The translations under genes and the position numbers were made by a program. From the NCBI RefSeq assembly GCF_026241205.1, contig NZ_JAPFQM010000006.1, forward strand, positions 744,001 through 808,000: DNA of 64,000 nt. Direction: 5' to 3'. Source of the DNA: Thermomicrobium sp. 4228-Ro (GTDB lineage: Bacteria; Chloroflexota; Chloroflexia; Thermomicrobiales; Thermomicrobiaceae). This document shows, one piece after another, positions 42,659-49,080 of the stretch (positions are counted from its first letter, which is position 1; each line of letters opens with the position of its first letter). The notes beneath the pieces were generated by a model. It saw nothing but the letters and a program-made list of their open reading frames with translations. It ran no database searches and had not been told where the DNA came from.

Positions 42659-43492
42659 ATGCTCGGGATCGTGACGGACAGCATCGCATGCTTGCCGGGC
42701 GAACTCGTCGAGCGCTACGGCATCCGGGTGGTGCCGGTACGGATCGTTCGGGGTGATCGTATTTACCGGGACGGGATCGATGTCACCCCGGAAGAAGCGT
42801 TCGCCTGGCTCGATACCGGTGAGATCGTCACCACCTCGCAGCCAGCGGTCGGTGAGTTCCTCGAGGTGTACCGGGACCTCGCCGCGCGGGTGGACGGGAT
42901 CGTGTCGATCCACGTCTCGTCGGGGGTTACCGGGGTCTACCAGGCGGCGTCCGCCGCGGCGTCGATGGTGTCCGGGGTGCCGATCGTCGTGATCGACAGC
43001 CGGGTAGCGACCATGGCGGAGGGGTTCTTGGTCCTCGAGGCAGCACGGCTGGCCGAGCAGGGGTCGGATCTCGCCGCTGTCGTCCAGCGAGTCGAGGCAC
43101 TCAGACCGCGTCTCCGCTTCTTCGCGGTTCTAGAGACTGTCACCTATCTGGTTCGCAGTGGCCGGGCACCGTGGTTAGCGCAGCTTGCGGTCGACGTCCT
43201 CCAATTCAAGCCAATTTTGACGTTGCAAGACGGCAAGATCGTCTCGCTCGAACGAGTCCGCACGCGCCCACGAGCGATTGAGGCGATGTTGCGGCGGATG
43301 GAGCGGGATGTCGATGATCGACCGGTTCACGTGGCCGTGCTGGAGGCCGGTGCTCGTACGGAAGCCGAGTACCTCGCGCAGGAGGTCGCGAGCCGCTTTC
43401 GCGTGGTCGAGCAGTACATCGCCCCGTTCACTGCGGCGATGGCACTCAACACCGGACCGGGACTCCTCGGGCTGGCCTACTATGCCGAGTGA
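42659..43492 (+). CDS. DegV-family fatty-acid-binding protein (FakB-like)
   Basis: The 277-residue protein is a complete DegV/FakB: IVTDSIACLPGEL at the start, VTTSQPAVGEFLEVY, the conserved SIHVSSGVTGVYQAA fatty-acid carboxylate site, VIDSRVATMAEGFLVLEAA, and FKPILTLQDGKI. FakB proteins hold a fatty acid while FakA phosphorylates it. It is translationally linked to plsY, with FakA divergent, so the three make a compact module for recycling fatty acids into phospholipid. It ends 13 bases before the stop of the convergent lipoprotein. Confidence 0.88.
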   Translation: MLGIVTDSIACLPGELVERYGIRVVPVRIVRGDRIYRDGIDVTPEEAFAWLDTGEIVTTSQPAVGEFLEVYRDLAARVDGIVSIHVSSGVTGVYQAASAAASMVSGVPIVVIDSRVATMAEGFLVLEAARLAEQGSDLAAVVQRVEALRPRLRFFAVLETVTYLVRSGRAPWLAQLAVDVLQFKPILTLQDGKIVSLERVRTRPRAIEAMLRRMERDVDDRPVHVAVLEAGARTEAEYLAQEVASRFRVVEQYIAPFTAAMALNTGPGLLGLAYYAE

Positions 43493-43505: not shown

Positions 43506-43979
43506 TCACTCGGGTGGCCAGGGGGTGTCGGTCGCCGGACCGAAACTGCTGTACCGCTCCTCGACGTACACCCGGATCTCGCGGAGCGATCGACCTTGCT
43601 GGGTGAGCCGCATCACGTCACGCGTGATGTCGATGCAGATCGCTCAGCCGAACGTCATGCCGCCGAGTACGACCGAGCCGTCCGGTCGCAACTCGCGGAC
43701 GGAACAGTCGAGCACCGACCGGTGGCCGAACTCGCCGCAGCCGCAGTAGCACGGGAAGTACTGCAAGATCTCCGGGTGGGTGACAGCGTACCGATAGGCT
43801 TCTTGCGCCTCCGGCGAAGCCTGGTAGAAGACCGCCGGCCAGCGGTCTTCCTTCGGCCAGGCGATGAGCACGGCCTCGCTCTCGTCCGGTGCTGCGCGTC
43901 GCTGGCACGCAGCCAGCAGCGGGAGCATCGTGAGCCCGATGAGGAACCGTCGTCGAGAGAACGAACCCTGCGTCGGCAT
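43506..43979 (-). CDS. PCYCGC-motif lipoprotein, selenoprotein candidate (TGA at 43646-43644 read as selenocysteine)
   Basis: ATG 43979 opens a lipoprotein with a Tat-like signal (FSRRRFLIGL) and lipobox LLAAC (Cys25), then PCYCGCGEFGH (76-86), DCSVRELRPDGSVV, and an in-frame TGA at codon 112. The same frame continues for 45 codons starting AICIDITRDVMRLTQQG, with SLREIRVYVEERY, to a TGA at 43506. In PCYCGC-family proteins this tail is present and begins C-G-x-C-x-[DE]-I; here the first Cys is the TGA and the second is Cys115, giving U-x-x-C. A SECIS-like hairpin follows. Stopping at the first TGA would remove the conserved last third. The true stop leaves 13 bases to the convergent gene. Function of the family is unknown; redox or metal binding is inferred. 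Confidence 0.85.
43611..43629 (-). promoter_or_regulatory. SECIS-like hairpin of the PCYCGC lipoprotein gene
   Basis: On the minus strand CATCACG and CGTGATG form a perfect seven-base stem around the loop CGTGA. The loop starts 22 nt after the TGA, the same distance as in the SelW-like gene, and the loops share CGTG. This fits a bacterial SECIS located inside the coding region just past the Sec codon. Confidence 0.65.
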
Positions 43980-44049: not shown

Positions 44050-44081
44050 TACGGGAAAATCCCGACGCGTGTCACGCGTCG
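44050..44081 (-). terminator. 19-base palindrome between the decayed hydrolase and the PCYCGC gene
   Basis: CGACGCGTG-T-CACGCGTCG at 44063-44081 has nine-base perfect arms. On the minus strand it is followed by GGGATTTTCC, so it could terminate the old hydrolase transcript. As a perfect short dyad upstream of the selenoprotein candidate it could also be a protein-binding operator. A possible -10 for that gene (TATCAT, 44035-44030) lies just past it. Confidence 0.4.
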
Positions 44082-44740
44082 TCGCGGCAGCCGGACGAGG
44101 CGCCCAGTCGGTCGATAGCCTGGCCCAACGCGAACGAGCGATCGCTCGGCCGATCGCCGACGAGGTACCGGCGCAAGAACGCGAGCACGCGCCGTCGGGC
44201 ATCGGTCGCTGTCTCGGGGCGGTAACTCGCGCGTGTCGTCGAGGAAGGCGTGCGGTGCACCGGGGTAGCTGCGCAGCTCGAACGCGATGCCTGTAGCAGC
44301 GAGCGCAGCGCGGAGATGTTCCACCTCGCGCGGCGGCACCGCCTGGTCGAGTTCACCGTAAACACCGAGAAGCGGGCAGTGCAGGGACTGGACGCGCTCG
44401 ATCGGATCCAGGTTGCGCCCGTGGCAGATAACGGCGGCGCCGAACAGTCGCTCTCGCGGACTGAAACGAGCGAGAGGGCGCCGTCCATACAAAAGTCGCC
44501 CGTGCCGATCTTCGGGCCGCGCACGTCGCCGCGAGCCAGGAGGAAGCGAGCGGGCGCGAGAGTTTCTCCGATCGGTCGGGGACAGGCCGTTCCCGTCGCC
44601 CGCTGAGCAGCTTGCTCGGGTGGAAAGGCGATCTTTTCATGGGAGCCGTCCACCGCTCCTGACCCGAAGCCATCGGCGAGGCGATGGTTCATGTCCCCGG
44701 GAAAGGACTCCGCGTCGCGAGCGTTGCTGGGCGAAGACAC
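44072..44740 (-). pseudogene. Decayed dienelactone hydrolase-family gene
   Basis: Pieces of a dienelactone hydrolase lie in alternating frames. One frame holds PARFLLARGDVRGPKIG and GDFCMDGALSLVS (nucleophile elbow with Cys). A frame change near 44465 leads to LFGAAVICHGRNLDPIERV, LGVYGELDQAVPP (Asp) and SYPGAPHAFLDDTR (His). A second change near 44235 leads to SYRPETATDARRRVLAFLRRYL, the usual C-terminal helix. The N-terminal third is not recoverable in any single frame, although fragments such as GAIPHVADSVA at about 44800 may belong to it. The three catalytic segments survive, so decay is fairly recent, or the assembly has errors. Confidence 0.7.
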
Positions 44741-45205
44741 CGCTGGGTGGCAGGGGGGCAGGGAGCGCGACGGAGTCGGCCACGTGTGGGATTGCGCCGA
44801 GACAGGCGATCATCGTGTCCATCATGATGTCACCCTCTCGAACGGTCGATCCAGTCGTTCCAAACAAGAGTGGAGGGACCGACTGGGAGCACGCTCTGCT
44901 CGTGATGACCGAAGATCCAAAAGATGCTTCTACTCACGACGCCCCTTCTGACGAAGCCCTGCTATGATGAGATCGAGCGTTTCGGGGGTGGCACAGTGGG
45001 ATACGGATCGTGTCGAAGAGTTTGTGAGTCGGCAGGAGTGCCGTCTTGAGCCGAACACTGCGCTGAACTGGCAGCACCGATCGGCGCTGCCACGGTGCGG
45101 TGATTGCTCGTTGTGGTCTGCGGTGCGCTTTTGGCTCTCCACTAGAGCGGAAGAGAGAAAAGGCGGGAACGCCCGGGGAAATTCGGAGGGGTAGGGGGAG
45201 TGCGG
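44741..45205. other. Gap upstream of the SQR-like operon
   Basis: About 460 bases. The left part probably holds unrecognisable N-terminal remnants of the dienelactone hydrolase on the minus strand. The right part holds a TATGAT hexamer at 44963-44968, a possible -10 for the SQR-like operon, without a clear -35. No convincing intact gene. Confidence 0.4.
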
Positions 45206-46360
45206 ATGAAGCGGGTGGTCATTCTCGGTGGCGGATCAGGCGGCGCGGTTGCCGCCAGCCGACTCGGTAAGTGGGGAAGAGCGGGCGAGTTCGAGGTCGT
45301 GCTGATCGACCGCAGTCCTTGGCACGAGTTCCGACCGAGCTATCTCTGGGTTGCGCTAGGAAAGCGCGAACCGGACGCGATCCGGCGTCCCTTGAGTCTC
45401 CTCAGCCAACGTTATGGAACACGGGTTGTCCAGGCGACGGTCACCTCGATTCGACCCGAGGCCAACGTCGTAGAGACTGATCGTGGAGCATTCGAGTACG
45501 ACTACCTCATCGTGGCGCTGGGATCAGAATTACGGTGGGATAGTCAGAACGAGGGGTGCGAAGCCCCATGGGAGCTCGATTTCGCACTGGCCTTGCGCGA
45601 GCGCCTTCGTCACTTCTCGGGTGGCCGGGTTGTGGTGGGACCGCTGTCCTGGCCCTATCGCTGCCCGCCGGCGCCGTTCGAGGTCGCGTTCATGATGAAG
45701 TATTTGGCGGAGCAGCGTGGTATCGCGGGACGGACGCAGATCACGGTTTTCCACCCCTGGAACGAGCCGATGGAGACGTTCGGTCCGCAAATGGTGGAAG
45801 GGTTCCGCCGGTTTCTCAACGATTTCGACGTGCATTTCGAGGGAGGTTTTGTTTGCGACCGTCATGACCGTGAGCGTCGGACGATCGTGGCACGGGATGG
45901 GCGAGAGCTGGAGTACGATCTTGCGATCGTGGTGCCCCATCATCAGCCGCCCGAAGCGGTTCGCAATTCCCCGCTCGCTGCGAGCGAGGGGTACATGGAT
46001 GTCGCGCTTCCTTCGATGCAGTCACCGCGCTTCAGCAATGTCTGGGGGATCGGCGATGTGGTAGCCCCGACCATCGGACTGGGTATGGCGGGGGTCTTCG
46101 CCCACTTTCAGGCGGAGCATGTCGTCAGCCAGATCATCGATCGTGAGCGCGGCGCGTATCTCGGTGAACTCTACAACATGGTCGGTATCTGCGTCATGGA
46201 CACCGGGTACATGGGAGCAGCCGTCTGGTGCAACTTCACGGACAAGCTCTACGGGCGTGCTCCCTATCCGGACTGTCGTCTCCTCGGCGGGATGCGAGCA
46301 TTCCGTGCTGTGAAGGTCGGGTTCGAGCGGTACTGGTTCGCAAATCTCTTTGGGGAATGA
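45206..46360 (+). CDS. Sulfide:quinone reductase-like FAD/NAD(P)-binding oxidoreductase
   Basis: The 384-residue flavoprotein begins with the dinucleotide-binding motif VVILGGGSGGAVAA, has the SQR-type FRPSYLW near residue 44, DYLIVALGSEL, and a second redox segment WPYRCPPAPFE (Cys about 153) that matches the SQR active-site Cys region. Other candidates for the Cys pair are Cys118 and VGICVMDTG near residue 340. The FAD-closing motif NVWGIGDVVAPTIGLGMAGVFAHFQA is intact. SQR oxidises sulfide and passes electrons to quinone at the membrane. ATG 45206 lies six bases after GGGGGAG. It is co-transcribed with a DUF1641 protein, an arrangement known for SQR-like genes in archaea and bacteria. Confidence 0.82.
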   Translation: MKRVVILGGGSGGAVAASRLGKWGRAGEFEVVLIDRSPWHEFRPSYLWVALGKREPDAIRRPLSLLSQRYGTRVVQATVTSIRPEANVVETDRGAFEYDYLIVALGSELRWDSQNEGCEAPWELDFALALRERLRHFSGGRVVVGPLSWPYRCPPAPFEVAFMMKYLAEQRGIAGRTQITVFHPWNEPMETFGPQMVEGFRRFLNDFDVHFEGGFVCDRHDRERRTIVARDGRELEYDLAIVVPHHQPPEAVRNSPLAASEGYMDVALPSMQSPRFSNVWGIGDVVAPTIGLGMAGVFAHFQAEHVVSQIIDRERGAYLGELYNMVGICVMDTGYMGAAVWCNFTDKLYGRAPYPDCRLLGGMRAFRAVKVGFERYWFANLFGE

Positions 46361-46371
46361 GAGGGTCGGGA

Positions 46372-46866
46372 ATGGCTGATGATGTGTCTCTGACGGCAAT
46401 GGAATGGACACCGGACGAGAGGGAGCGTCTGGAACGTCTACTTGCGCGTCTCGTAGCCAGCGTGGATGCTCTCGAACAGTGCATAGAGCTGATCGATCGG
46501 TTGGCATCCAGCGGGCTGCTGGCTGGGATCAATGCGGTATTGGAGGAATTCGACGAGACATTCAGTGCGATCAATCGGCCGGAACTCATGGGTATGGTCG
46601 CGAACGCCATGATGCTCCTCGGCCTGCTCAGCCAGCTCCGCTACGAGCCGTTCTTCGATCTCGCGATGCGTGCACCGGCGGTGATGAACGAAGCCTATCC
46701 ACGTTTCAAGCGACGTGCCGATCGGCTGAGCGTCCGTGAGGCGCTCGATCTCCTGCGTAGTCCGGAGGTGGCAGCAGCGCTGGAGCTGCTGGTGGCAGTC
46801 CTGCGGGCACAGCGCGGTGTGACCGGCGACTCGGTTGCACCGCTGCCGCGGACGCCGGGGCACTGA
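46372..46866 (+). CDS. DUF1641-family protein, partner of the SQR-like enzyme
   Basis: The 164-residue helical protein contains LERLLARLVASVDALEQCIE, LIDRLASSGLLAGINAVLEE, a glycine-containing hydrophobic hairpin MGMVANAMMLLGLLSQL and SVREALDLLRSPEVAAALELL, which is the DUF1641 wording. These proteins are encoded beside flavin oxidoreductases and are thought to help dock or stabilise them. It begins 11 bases after the SQR-like stop. ATG 46357, which overlaps that stop, is an alternative start. Confidence 0.75.
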   Translation: MADDVSLTAMEWTPDERERLERLLARLVASVDALEQCIELIDRLASSGLLAGINAVLEEFDETFSAINRPELMGMVANAMMLLGLLSQLRYEPFFDLAMRAPAVMNEAYPRFKRRADRLSVREALDLLRSPEVAAALELLVAVLRAQRGVTGDSVAPLPRTPGH

Positions 46867-47108: not shown

Positions 47109-47184
<76 letters not shown>

Positions 47185-47242: not shown

Positions 47243-47701
47243 TCAGGCTGGCCGCTCGACGGTGTCCACCGGAGCGACGGACCGCCCCCGCAAGCGCACG
47301 GCACGGACCCGGACCGCGAGTGCCCATGCCAGCAAGCCGAGGCCGAGCACCCCGAGCAGCGGCTGGATCGGCGCGAACCATTGGAGTGCGCCGCTGGTGC
47401 CGAGCAGGAGTAGGACGAGCTTGTTGCAAACCGGACAGCCAACCGCGAAGTACGTCGCGACGGTACCCAGTGTCGTCCGACCTTGCGGCAGCGGACAAGC
47501 TGATGGCCAGGCATAGGTGGCGGCGAGCGCAGCGACGAGCACGACGGTGGCGGCGAAGATGACGTAATCGATGGTATCAGGCAGGATCATCCGGCTGAAG
47601 AGCGGGTTCGGGATGAGTGCCGTGGGGATGCCGATCAGTCCAGCGGTGACCAGCGCTCCGAAACTACCATAGATGATCGCTCGCCAAAGCGGGGGGCGCA
47701 C
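47243..47701 (-). CDS. Four-helix membrane protein with a CPVC motif
   Basis: The 152-residue protein starts at GTG 47701 behind AGGAGG. It has four membrane helices (about residues 8-28, 45-65, 85-105, 108-130). Between helices 2 and 3 are YAWPSACPLPQG and FAVGCPVCNKLV, placing three cysteines, two as C-P-x-C, near one membrane face. Such an arrangement suggests redox chemistry or metal binding, loosely like VKOR/DsbB-type proteins, but it is not a member I can name. The open frame upstream to 47968 is shadow. Confidence 0.65.
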   Translation of the reverse strand: MRPPLWRAIIYGSFGALVTAGLIGIPTALIPNPLFSRMILPDTIDYVIFAATVVLVAALAATYAWPSACPLPQGRTTLGTVATYFAVGCPVCNKLVLLLLGTSGALQWFAPIQPLLGVLGLGLLAWALAVRVRAVRLRGRSVAPVDTVERPA

Positions 47702-47793
47702 AGGTACCTCCTCGCATCCTGCACCGAGTGTAGCATCGTGCCTGCTGCGCTGGCTGCCGCAGCAGGTGGTGACCATCGGACGGGAGGACGGGC

Positions 47794-49080
47794 GTGCGCC
47801 GACAGTGGACGGAGGCGCTGGCAGCCCTGCGCTTCCGCGATTTTCGTCTGCTCTGGGCTGGACAATTCGTCTCGATGCTCGGCACGCAGATGCAGACCGT
47901 CGCGTTGAGCTGGCTGGTGTACGACCTGACCGGTTCGCCAGCCCAGCTGGGTGGCATCGCCCTAGCACGAGCGATTCCGACCATCGTCCTCTCGCTCTTC
48001 GGTGGGACGCTGGCCGATCAGGTCGACCGGCGCAAACTCCTGCTCGTCACCCAGTCGACCGCAGCGCTCCTCCTGGGCATCCTCGCTGTCTCCGTGAGCC
48101 TCGGTTGGACAGCGCTGCCGCTCCTCTATGCCCTCGCCTTTGCGTCGGCGGCGGCGATGGCCTTCGACTCACCAGCGCGTCAGGCGCTCATCCCAGCGCT
48201 CGTTCCGCGCGAGCGGCTCGCCAATGCGCTGACGCTCAACGTGCTCGCCTGGGACGTCGCAGCGGTGGTCGGGCCAGCGCTCGGAGGCGTGGTGATCGCG
48301 CGGGTCGGTGTCGCGGCGGCCTTCTGGGCCGATGCCCTGAGCTATCTCGCAGTCGTGGCAGCGCTCCTGGCGATGCGCCGCGACATTCCAGTACCCCGGC
48401 CCGAGCGGCGAGGCTGGGAAGCGTTTCTCGACGGACTCGTCTTCGTGAGGGGCCGGCCGATCCTCTGGCAGCTCATGCTGCTCGACTTCTTCGCTGTCGC
48501 CCTGGCCTCGACGACGGGACTGCTGCCGGTCTTCGCGCGCGATGTGCTCGGTGTCGGGCCCGATGGTCTCGGGCTGCTCTACGCTGCGCCGAGCGTCGGG
48601 GCCATCGTGGGTGCAGCGCTGTTCGCACTGGCTCCGGTGCCCCATCGGCCCGGACGGGTGGTCGTCTGGGTGGTGGTCGGGTACGGGGCTACACTGGCGG
48701 CGTTCGGACTGAGCCGCTGGTTCTGGTTGTCGCTCGCCCTGCTTGCGCTTTCCGGCGCGCTGGATGCCGTCAGCATGGCGCTGCGGCAGACGGTCCGCCA
48801 GCTGGCGACGCCAGATGCCTATCGGGGGCGTGTCGGGGCGCTCGCGTCGGTCTTCAGCACCGGCGGACCACGCCTCGGGCAGTTCCAATCGGGTATCCTC
48901 GCCAGCCTGATCGGACCGGCGGGTGCCATGGTGCTCGGCGGCATCGGCTGCATCGGCGTGGCACTGGCTTCCCGCTGGTGGGGTGCGGAACTCTGGCGTT
49001 ACGCCGGCGAGGAACTCGCCGAGGTGGCACCGGATGGAGCATCTGCCGAGCGGGCGACTGCCCATCCGGCTGTGGAATGA
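47794..49080 (+). CDS. MFS transporter (EntS-like exporter)
   Basis: The 428-residue protein has twelve membrane helices and matches the EntS/MFS_3 branch: ALRFRDFRLLWAGQFVSMLGTQMQ at the N-terminus, GGTLADQVDRRKLLL (the MFS loop 2-3 motif), AFDSPARQALIPALVP, NALTLNVLAWDVAAVVGPALGG and TPDAYRGRVGALASVF. Members export siderophores, drugs or unknown small molecules by proton antiport. GTG 47794 follows GGGAGGACGG. Stand-alone gene. Confidence 0.88.
   Translation: MRRQWTEALAALRFRDFRLLWAGQFVSMLGTQMQTVALSWLVYDLTGSPAQLGGIALARAIPTIVLSLFGGTLADQVDRRKLLLVTQSTAALLLGILAVSVSLGWTALPLLYALAFASAAAMAFDSPARQALIPALVPRERLANALTLNVLAWDVAAVVGPALGGVVIARVGVAAAFWADALSYLAVVAALLAMRRDIPVPRPERRGWEAFLDGLVFVRGRPILWQLMLLDFFAVALASTTGLLPVFARDVLGVGPDGLGLLYAAPSVGAIVGAALFALAPVPHRPGRVVVWVVVGYGATLAAFGLSRWFWLSLALLALSGALDAVSMALRQTVRQLATPDAYRGRVGALASVFSTGGPRLGQFQSGILASLIGPAGAMVLGGIGCIGVALASRWWGAELWRYAGEELAEVAPDGASAERATAHPAVE

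Follow-up and report, generated by a model that had tools for sequence, protein, structure and literature searches.

The selenium content of the PF13798 family is already on record. A 2026 review lists the CYCXC family protein (hypothetical protein OS_HP4; PF13798; motif UxxC) among the selenoproteins and cites Zhang & Gladyshev (2007) for its first report (PMC13188914). Likewise, the NCBIfam model NF041379 bears the name 'OS_HP4_CYCXC, CYCXC family (seleno)protein'. A previous reading of the present locus from the sequence alone had assumed a family without any description as selenium-containing; this is contradicted by both sources, and its claim of novelty therefore fails. The original OS_HP4 reportedly stems from a deltaproteobacterial symbiont. 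In Bacillota, the PF13798 PCYCGC lipoprotein AOT13_14730 of Parageobacillus was described with cysteine only and adjoins an Fe3+ substrate-binding protein (PMC13068155). In the literature searched, no experimental work on the function of the PCYCGC family and no paper on a Chloroflexota branch of PF13798 selenoproteins was found.

The gene considered here lies in a 64,000-nucleotide stretch of the Thermomicrobium sp. 4228-Ro genome, referred to in its full length as the window. With OS_HP4/CYCXC its product shares PF13798, a UxxC with selenocysteine (Sec) in first place and the existence of Cys homologues, but it belongs to a Thermomicrobia/Chloroflexota branch, appears as a Tat-like lipoprotein and scores 57.1 bits against NF041379, below the equivalog cut-off of 90. 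The PCYCGC motif, the lipobox and four other conserved cysteines, including that of the lipobox, are common to AOT13_14730, from which it differs by its Sec form. The gene represents a branch newly added to a selenoprotein family already known, a SECIS case of unusual clarity and a new functional lead, the new aspects being the breadth of the family in Chloroflexota and the copper-gene neighbourhood.

Reading frame and conservation of the TGA column

The following features of the window are referred to below:

43506..43979, minus strand: PCYCGC-motif (PF13798) lipoprotein gene, 157 residues with predicted Sec112, final stop TGA at 43508-43506
42659..43492, plus strand: convergent neighbour, DegV-like by inspection, outside the system, 13 bases from the stop of the Sec gene
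43905..43979, minus strand: putative signal peptide, comprising the twin-arginine-like stretch SRRRFLIG and the lipobox LLAAC (Cys25), read from the sequence, same pattern in genus relatives
43737..43754, minus strand: PCYCGC motif, residues 76-81, with Cys77, Cys79 and Cys81 invariant in the alignments
43722..43724, minus strand: His86, invariant in the alignments
43704..43706, minus strand: Cys92, invariant in the alignments
43656..43658, minus strand: Met108, at the position four residues ahead of Sec, which is mostly Met in Sec forms and almost always His in Cys forms
43644..43646, minus strand: TGA codon 112, predicted selenocysteine by alignment and codon column, first in UxxC; Cys115 at 43637-43635
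43611..43629, minus strand: predicted SECIS hairpin, 7-bp stem CATCACG/CGTGATG, loop CGTGA, 15-33 nt past the TGA

Starting from the ATG at 43979, the minus-strand frame passes through the TGA at codon 112, continues for 45 codons and closes at the second TGA, in the order MPTQGSFSRRRFLIGLTMLPLLAACQ...PCYCGCGEFGHRSVLDCSV...GGMTFG-TGA-AICIDITRDVMRLTQQGRSLREIRVYVEERYSSFGPATDTPWPPE-TGA. The complete lipoprotein frame with its 45-codon tail had been described accurately by the sequence-only reading, as had the distance of 13 bases between the real stop and the convergent gene (43506 versus 43492). The match to PF13798 covers residues 45-155 and is uninterrupted over the first TGA (E 3.4e-25), its 89.2 bits against a gathering score of 25 placing the protein in the family. 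In a GC-rich genome, an open tail after one TGA means little by itself. Nevertheless, a chance open tail is ruled out here because of the alignment and the RNA covariation.

The search with the PF13798 profile covered 61 genomes close to that of the window, 400 Chloroflexota genomes and a scan of GTDB genomes, many of the sampled loci being close relatives of one another. Exactly one TGA occurred in 15 of the 18 copies from the 61 nearby genomes, including one in each of the five other genomes of the genus in which the profile matched. The family was present in 36 of the 400 Chloroflexota genomes, with TGA-containing and open frames mixed, and TGA forms made up 28 of the 80 loci kept from the GTDB scan, some of them from records whose titles name Methylomirabilota, Rokuibacteriota and Bacillota. 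Across the aligned related loci, the decisive column contained TGA (39), TGC (34) and TGT (27) and no other codon, and the Sec-type copies of Chloroflexota, Methylomirabilota, Rokuibacteriota and Bacillota always carried their TGA at this one position. The proposal that the TGA occupies the first Cys position of a C-x-x-C is thereby borne out, both by the family alignment (U112-A-I-C115) and by the same codon in related Thermomicrobia, six members of the genus included. As no other conserved Cys pair is so spaced, the UxxC of the family can only be U112-x-x-C115, which agrees with the Sec-first motif of NF041379. Both alignments retain P76, C77, C79, G80, C81, H86, C92, C/U112 and C115 without exception. 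The tail was likewise rightly called conserved, since C115 is invariant and purifying selection on the codons past the TGA resembles that on the codons before it; compared with the homologue L015, the post-TGA codons showed 10.5 synonymous changes across 32 sites, against 3.5 non-synonymous ones across 97. Ten relatives also fall below the NF041379 cut-off of 90 (47-76 bits). Members scoring this low suggest that the branch is probably mis-annotated and its genes probably truncated by annotation pipelines.

Some relatives possess two Sec-type PCYCGC genes. In genome G054 both copies (L013/L025) are of an APT-U type, and genome G037 (L011/L026) combines one SFG-U type with one APT-U type featuring a different N-terminal part.

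SECIS hairpin and selenocysteine machinery

Bacterial SECIS elements, e.g., that of E. coli fdhF, are in-frame hairpins just past the UGA, with a G close to where the apical loop begins. The hairpin found here resembles them in both respects but features a family-specific 7-bp stem with a CGUGA loop, located 15-33 nt past the UGA. Most of the TGA genes share it, with a five-base loop that mostly reads CGUGA. Among 32 dereplicated Sec genes, 94.6% of the stem cells were paired, six of the seven pairs exhibited compensatory two-sided changes and the covariation score was reached by none of 500 shuffles. Sliding the arms by one base reduced pairing to only 10-20%, and RNAalifold predicts exactly the 7-bp stem. 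The Cys homologues provide a control, as the peptide they encode is almost identical: all seven pairs were formed in 25 of 32 Sec genes versus 2 of 43 Cys genes, and the two pairs with third codon positions on both sides, i.e., synonymous sites, were paired in 63 of 64 Sec cells versus 28 of 86 Cys cells. The pairing of the hairpin is not accounted for by the protein sequence. Judged by this covariation, the 7-bp hairpin past the TGA is identified as a SECIS element, which would make selenocysteine insertion close to certain. The separation arises from position-specific pairing alone, as stability relative to synonymous-codon shuffles did not distinguish Sec from Cys genes. A single-sequence fold of the window was not unusually stable (z -0.38), no Rfam family exceeded the threshold over the gene, and a hairpin-only scan of every TGA in the window was not specific.

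The genome of the window encodes tRNA-Sec, selA, selB and selD, so that the lack of Sec machinery named beforehand as evidence against a selenoprotein did not emerge. Its selD itself features an in-frame TGA in the CAG-U-AGK motif (L038, G000:C1:1677655-1678590), which indicates that selenophosphate synthetase is a selenoprotein in this organism, too. Presence of selB does not split the genomes with Sec forms from those with Cys forms, with 41 of 46 passing the cut-off across both groups.

According to the proposed mechanism, SelB would read UGA112 as selenocysteine, directed by the SECIS hairpin inside the coding sequence. The product would be an exported lipoprotein of the PCYCGC/CYCXC (OS_HP4) family, probably a Tat substrate, in which Sec would take the place of the first Cys in the conserved UxxC at a helix start. 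We infer the actual incorporation of selenium from codon, frame, SECIS, machinery, family and conserved residues, and the gene almost certainly encodes a selenoprotein with Sec at UGA112. It is extremely improbable that UGA112 is an ordinary stop terminating a 111-residue protein, be it through a nonsense mutation or a sequencing error. Standard gene callers do end the frame at the TGA, and it was accordingly listed only to 43644, but the same-codon TGA recurs in six members of the genus and many other genomes, the tail beyond it is conserved under purifying selection with its invariant C115, and the SECIS covaries. Of the sequence-only interpretation, the selenoprotein thus stood, carried by the TGA/Cys column, the machinery, the covarying SECIS and the selected tail, while the novelty of a selenium-containing family did not.

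Gene neighbourhood, fold and the predicted redox or copper centre

Clusters of genes neighbouring the homologues were identified from one or few representatives each. Heavy-metal P1B ATPases (CopA-like) occur near 27 of the 80 loci, seven of these being Sec forms, and COX2/cupredoxin-like and cytochrome c proteins with a Fer4_5 membrane protein form one linked cluster at 51 loci. Further recurring neighbours are multicopper oxidases, HMA proteins, DUF1573, YtkA, CusB-like and DUF305 proteins. In Thermomicrobium, the neighbours of the Sec gene are not metal genes. Upstream of it, dienelactone-hydrolase-like pieces are spread over at least two frames at positions 44072-44740 (minus strand), probably because the gene carries a frameshift or has decayed. 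Elsewhere in the window, inspection by eye suggests an FAD/NAD oxidoreductase like sulfide:quinone reductases and, after it, a small DUF1641-like protein (45200-46866, plus strand), and a membrane protein with a CPVCNK motif (47243-47968, minus strand) adjoins a tRNA-Lys gene (47109-47184).

At least seven switches between Sec and Cys occurred on the tree. In 23 of 24 cases, a Met four residues ahead of the Sec/Cys site goes with Sec, and His is found in 42 of 43 Cys forms, an association of Fisher p 5e-11 by raw counts; the tree contains too few independent pairs for the coupling to be confirmed. Nine Sec forms carry His instead of Met (L064, L065, L068, L100, L116, L118, L145, L146 and L148), and the lone Cys form with Met belongs to Kyrpidia (L090). 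Met and His are both copper ligands. Met108 of the Sec forms may hence reflect an exchange between copper ligands; alternatively, the more acidic Sec might need no activating His. Twin-arginine motifs were matched by a simple pattern in 19 of 32 Sec forms versus 8 of 43 Cys forms.

Two AF2 models were confident (pLDDT 89.9 and 87.1) and place the UxxC at a helix start. In a Foldseek comparison with 350,542 PDB chains, the best match of both was the periplasmic N-terminal domain of CcmH (E 0.55 and 0.81; rmsd about 7 A), with 2kw0 ranking first for both models and 2hl7 second and sixth. Like CcmH (PF03918), the protein is modelled as a helical thiol domain on the export side, whose C-terminal helix pair is similar. 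In contrast to CcmH, it shows no significant sequence match (no PF03918 hit by Pfam) and features CxCxC, an inserted H86/C92 hairpin and the UxxC at the next helix. The fold thus appears CcmH-like, a weak but repeated result; as the E values exceed 0.5 and profile support is weak, it is a lead and not a membership. A profile-profile comparison with hhalign gave no significant homology to CcmH either, the alignment reaching a probability of 8% (P 0.0045 over 23 columns) and touching weakly on the last helix only. A profile search of the PDB returned weak saposin and ferredoxin matches only and no solved homologue.

Together, C77, C79, C81, H86, C92, [H/M]108, [C/U]112 and C115 would most likely build a centre in the envelope for Cu(I) binding or thiol/selenol redox chemistry, in which Sec might act as a softer ligand or a faster nucleophile. 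A Sec lipoprotein with a centre of either kind is the likely overall explanation. For the narrower proposal of an exported Cu(I)-handling thiol/selenol protein, resting on conserved residues and gene context, the chances appear evenly balanced. The main rival, a thiol/selenol oxidoreductase serving the maturation of envelope proteins (CcmH/thioredoxin-partner type) and not a copper protein, is somewhat unlikely. It would suit the CcmH domains heading the PDB matches of both models, the UxxC at a helix start and one Sec lineage with CcdA, a TlpA/CcmG-like protein and CcmH directly upstream. However, the Foldseek and hhalign scores are weak, CcmH adjoins the gene in that one lineage only among the loci surveyed, the genes of the wider neighbourhood deal with metals and a metal ligand would fit the H-to-M exchange.

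Selenocysteine has a high affinity for soft metals, which also counts for a selenoprotein binding or detoxifying another soft metal or metalloid (Hg, Ag, As) instead of copper. ArsR-type regulators (by eye) stand near some loci, as do P1B ATPases, for which Pfam does not specify the metal; yet the recurring multicopper oxidases, cupredoxin domains and COX2-like proteins point to copper, and mer genes were not among the neighbours identified in the general survey, leaving this explanation improbable. Returning to copper handling, a more far-reaching and rather speculative proposal is that PCYCGC proteins, built on a CcmH-like scaffold, constitute a class of Cu(I) chaperones or buffers of the envelope that has so far gone unrecognised, with Sec as copper ligand or copper-reactive selenol; the His-to-Met exchange and the frequent Tat-like signals of Sec forms would then reflect that the centre is exported already loaded and folded.

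A family of selenoproteins that had been listed on the basis of very few sequences hence proves to be common across Chloroflexota and to occur in several further phyla, with its Sec and Cys forms having been interchanged repeatedly. Moreover, the copper-gene context offers a first testable role for a family labelled 'unknown function'. If the copper reading is true, copper handling would join the roles suggested for selenocysteine.
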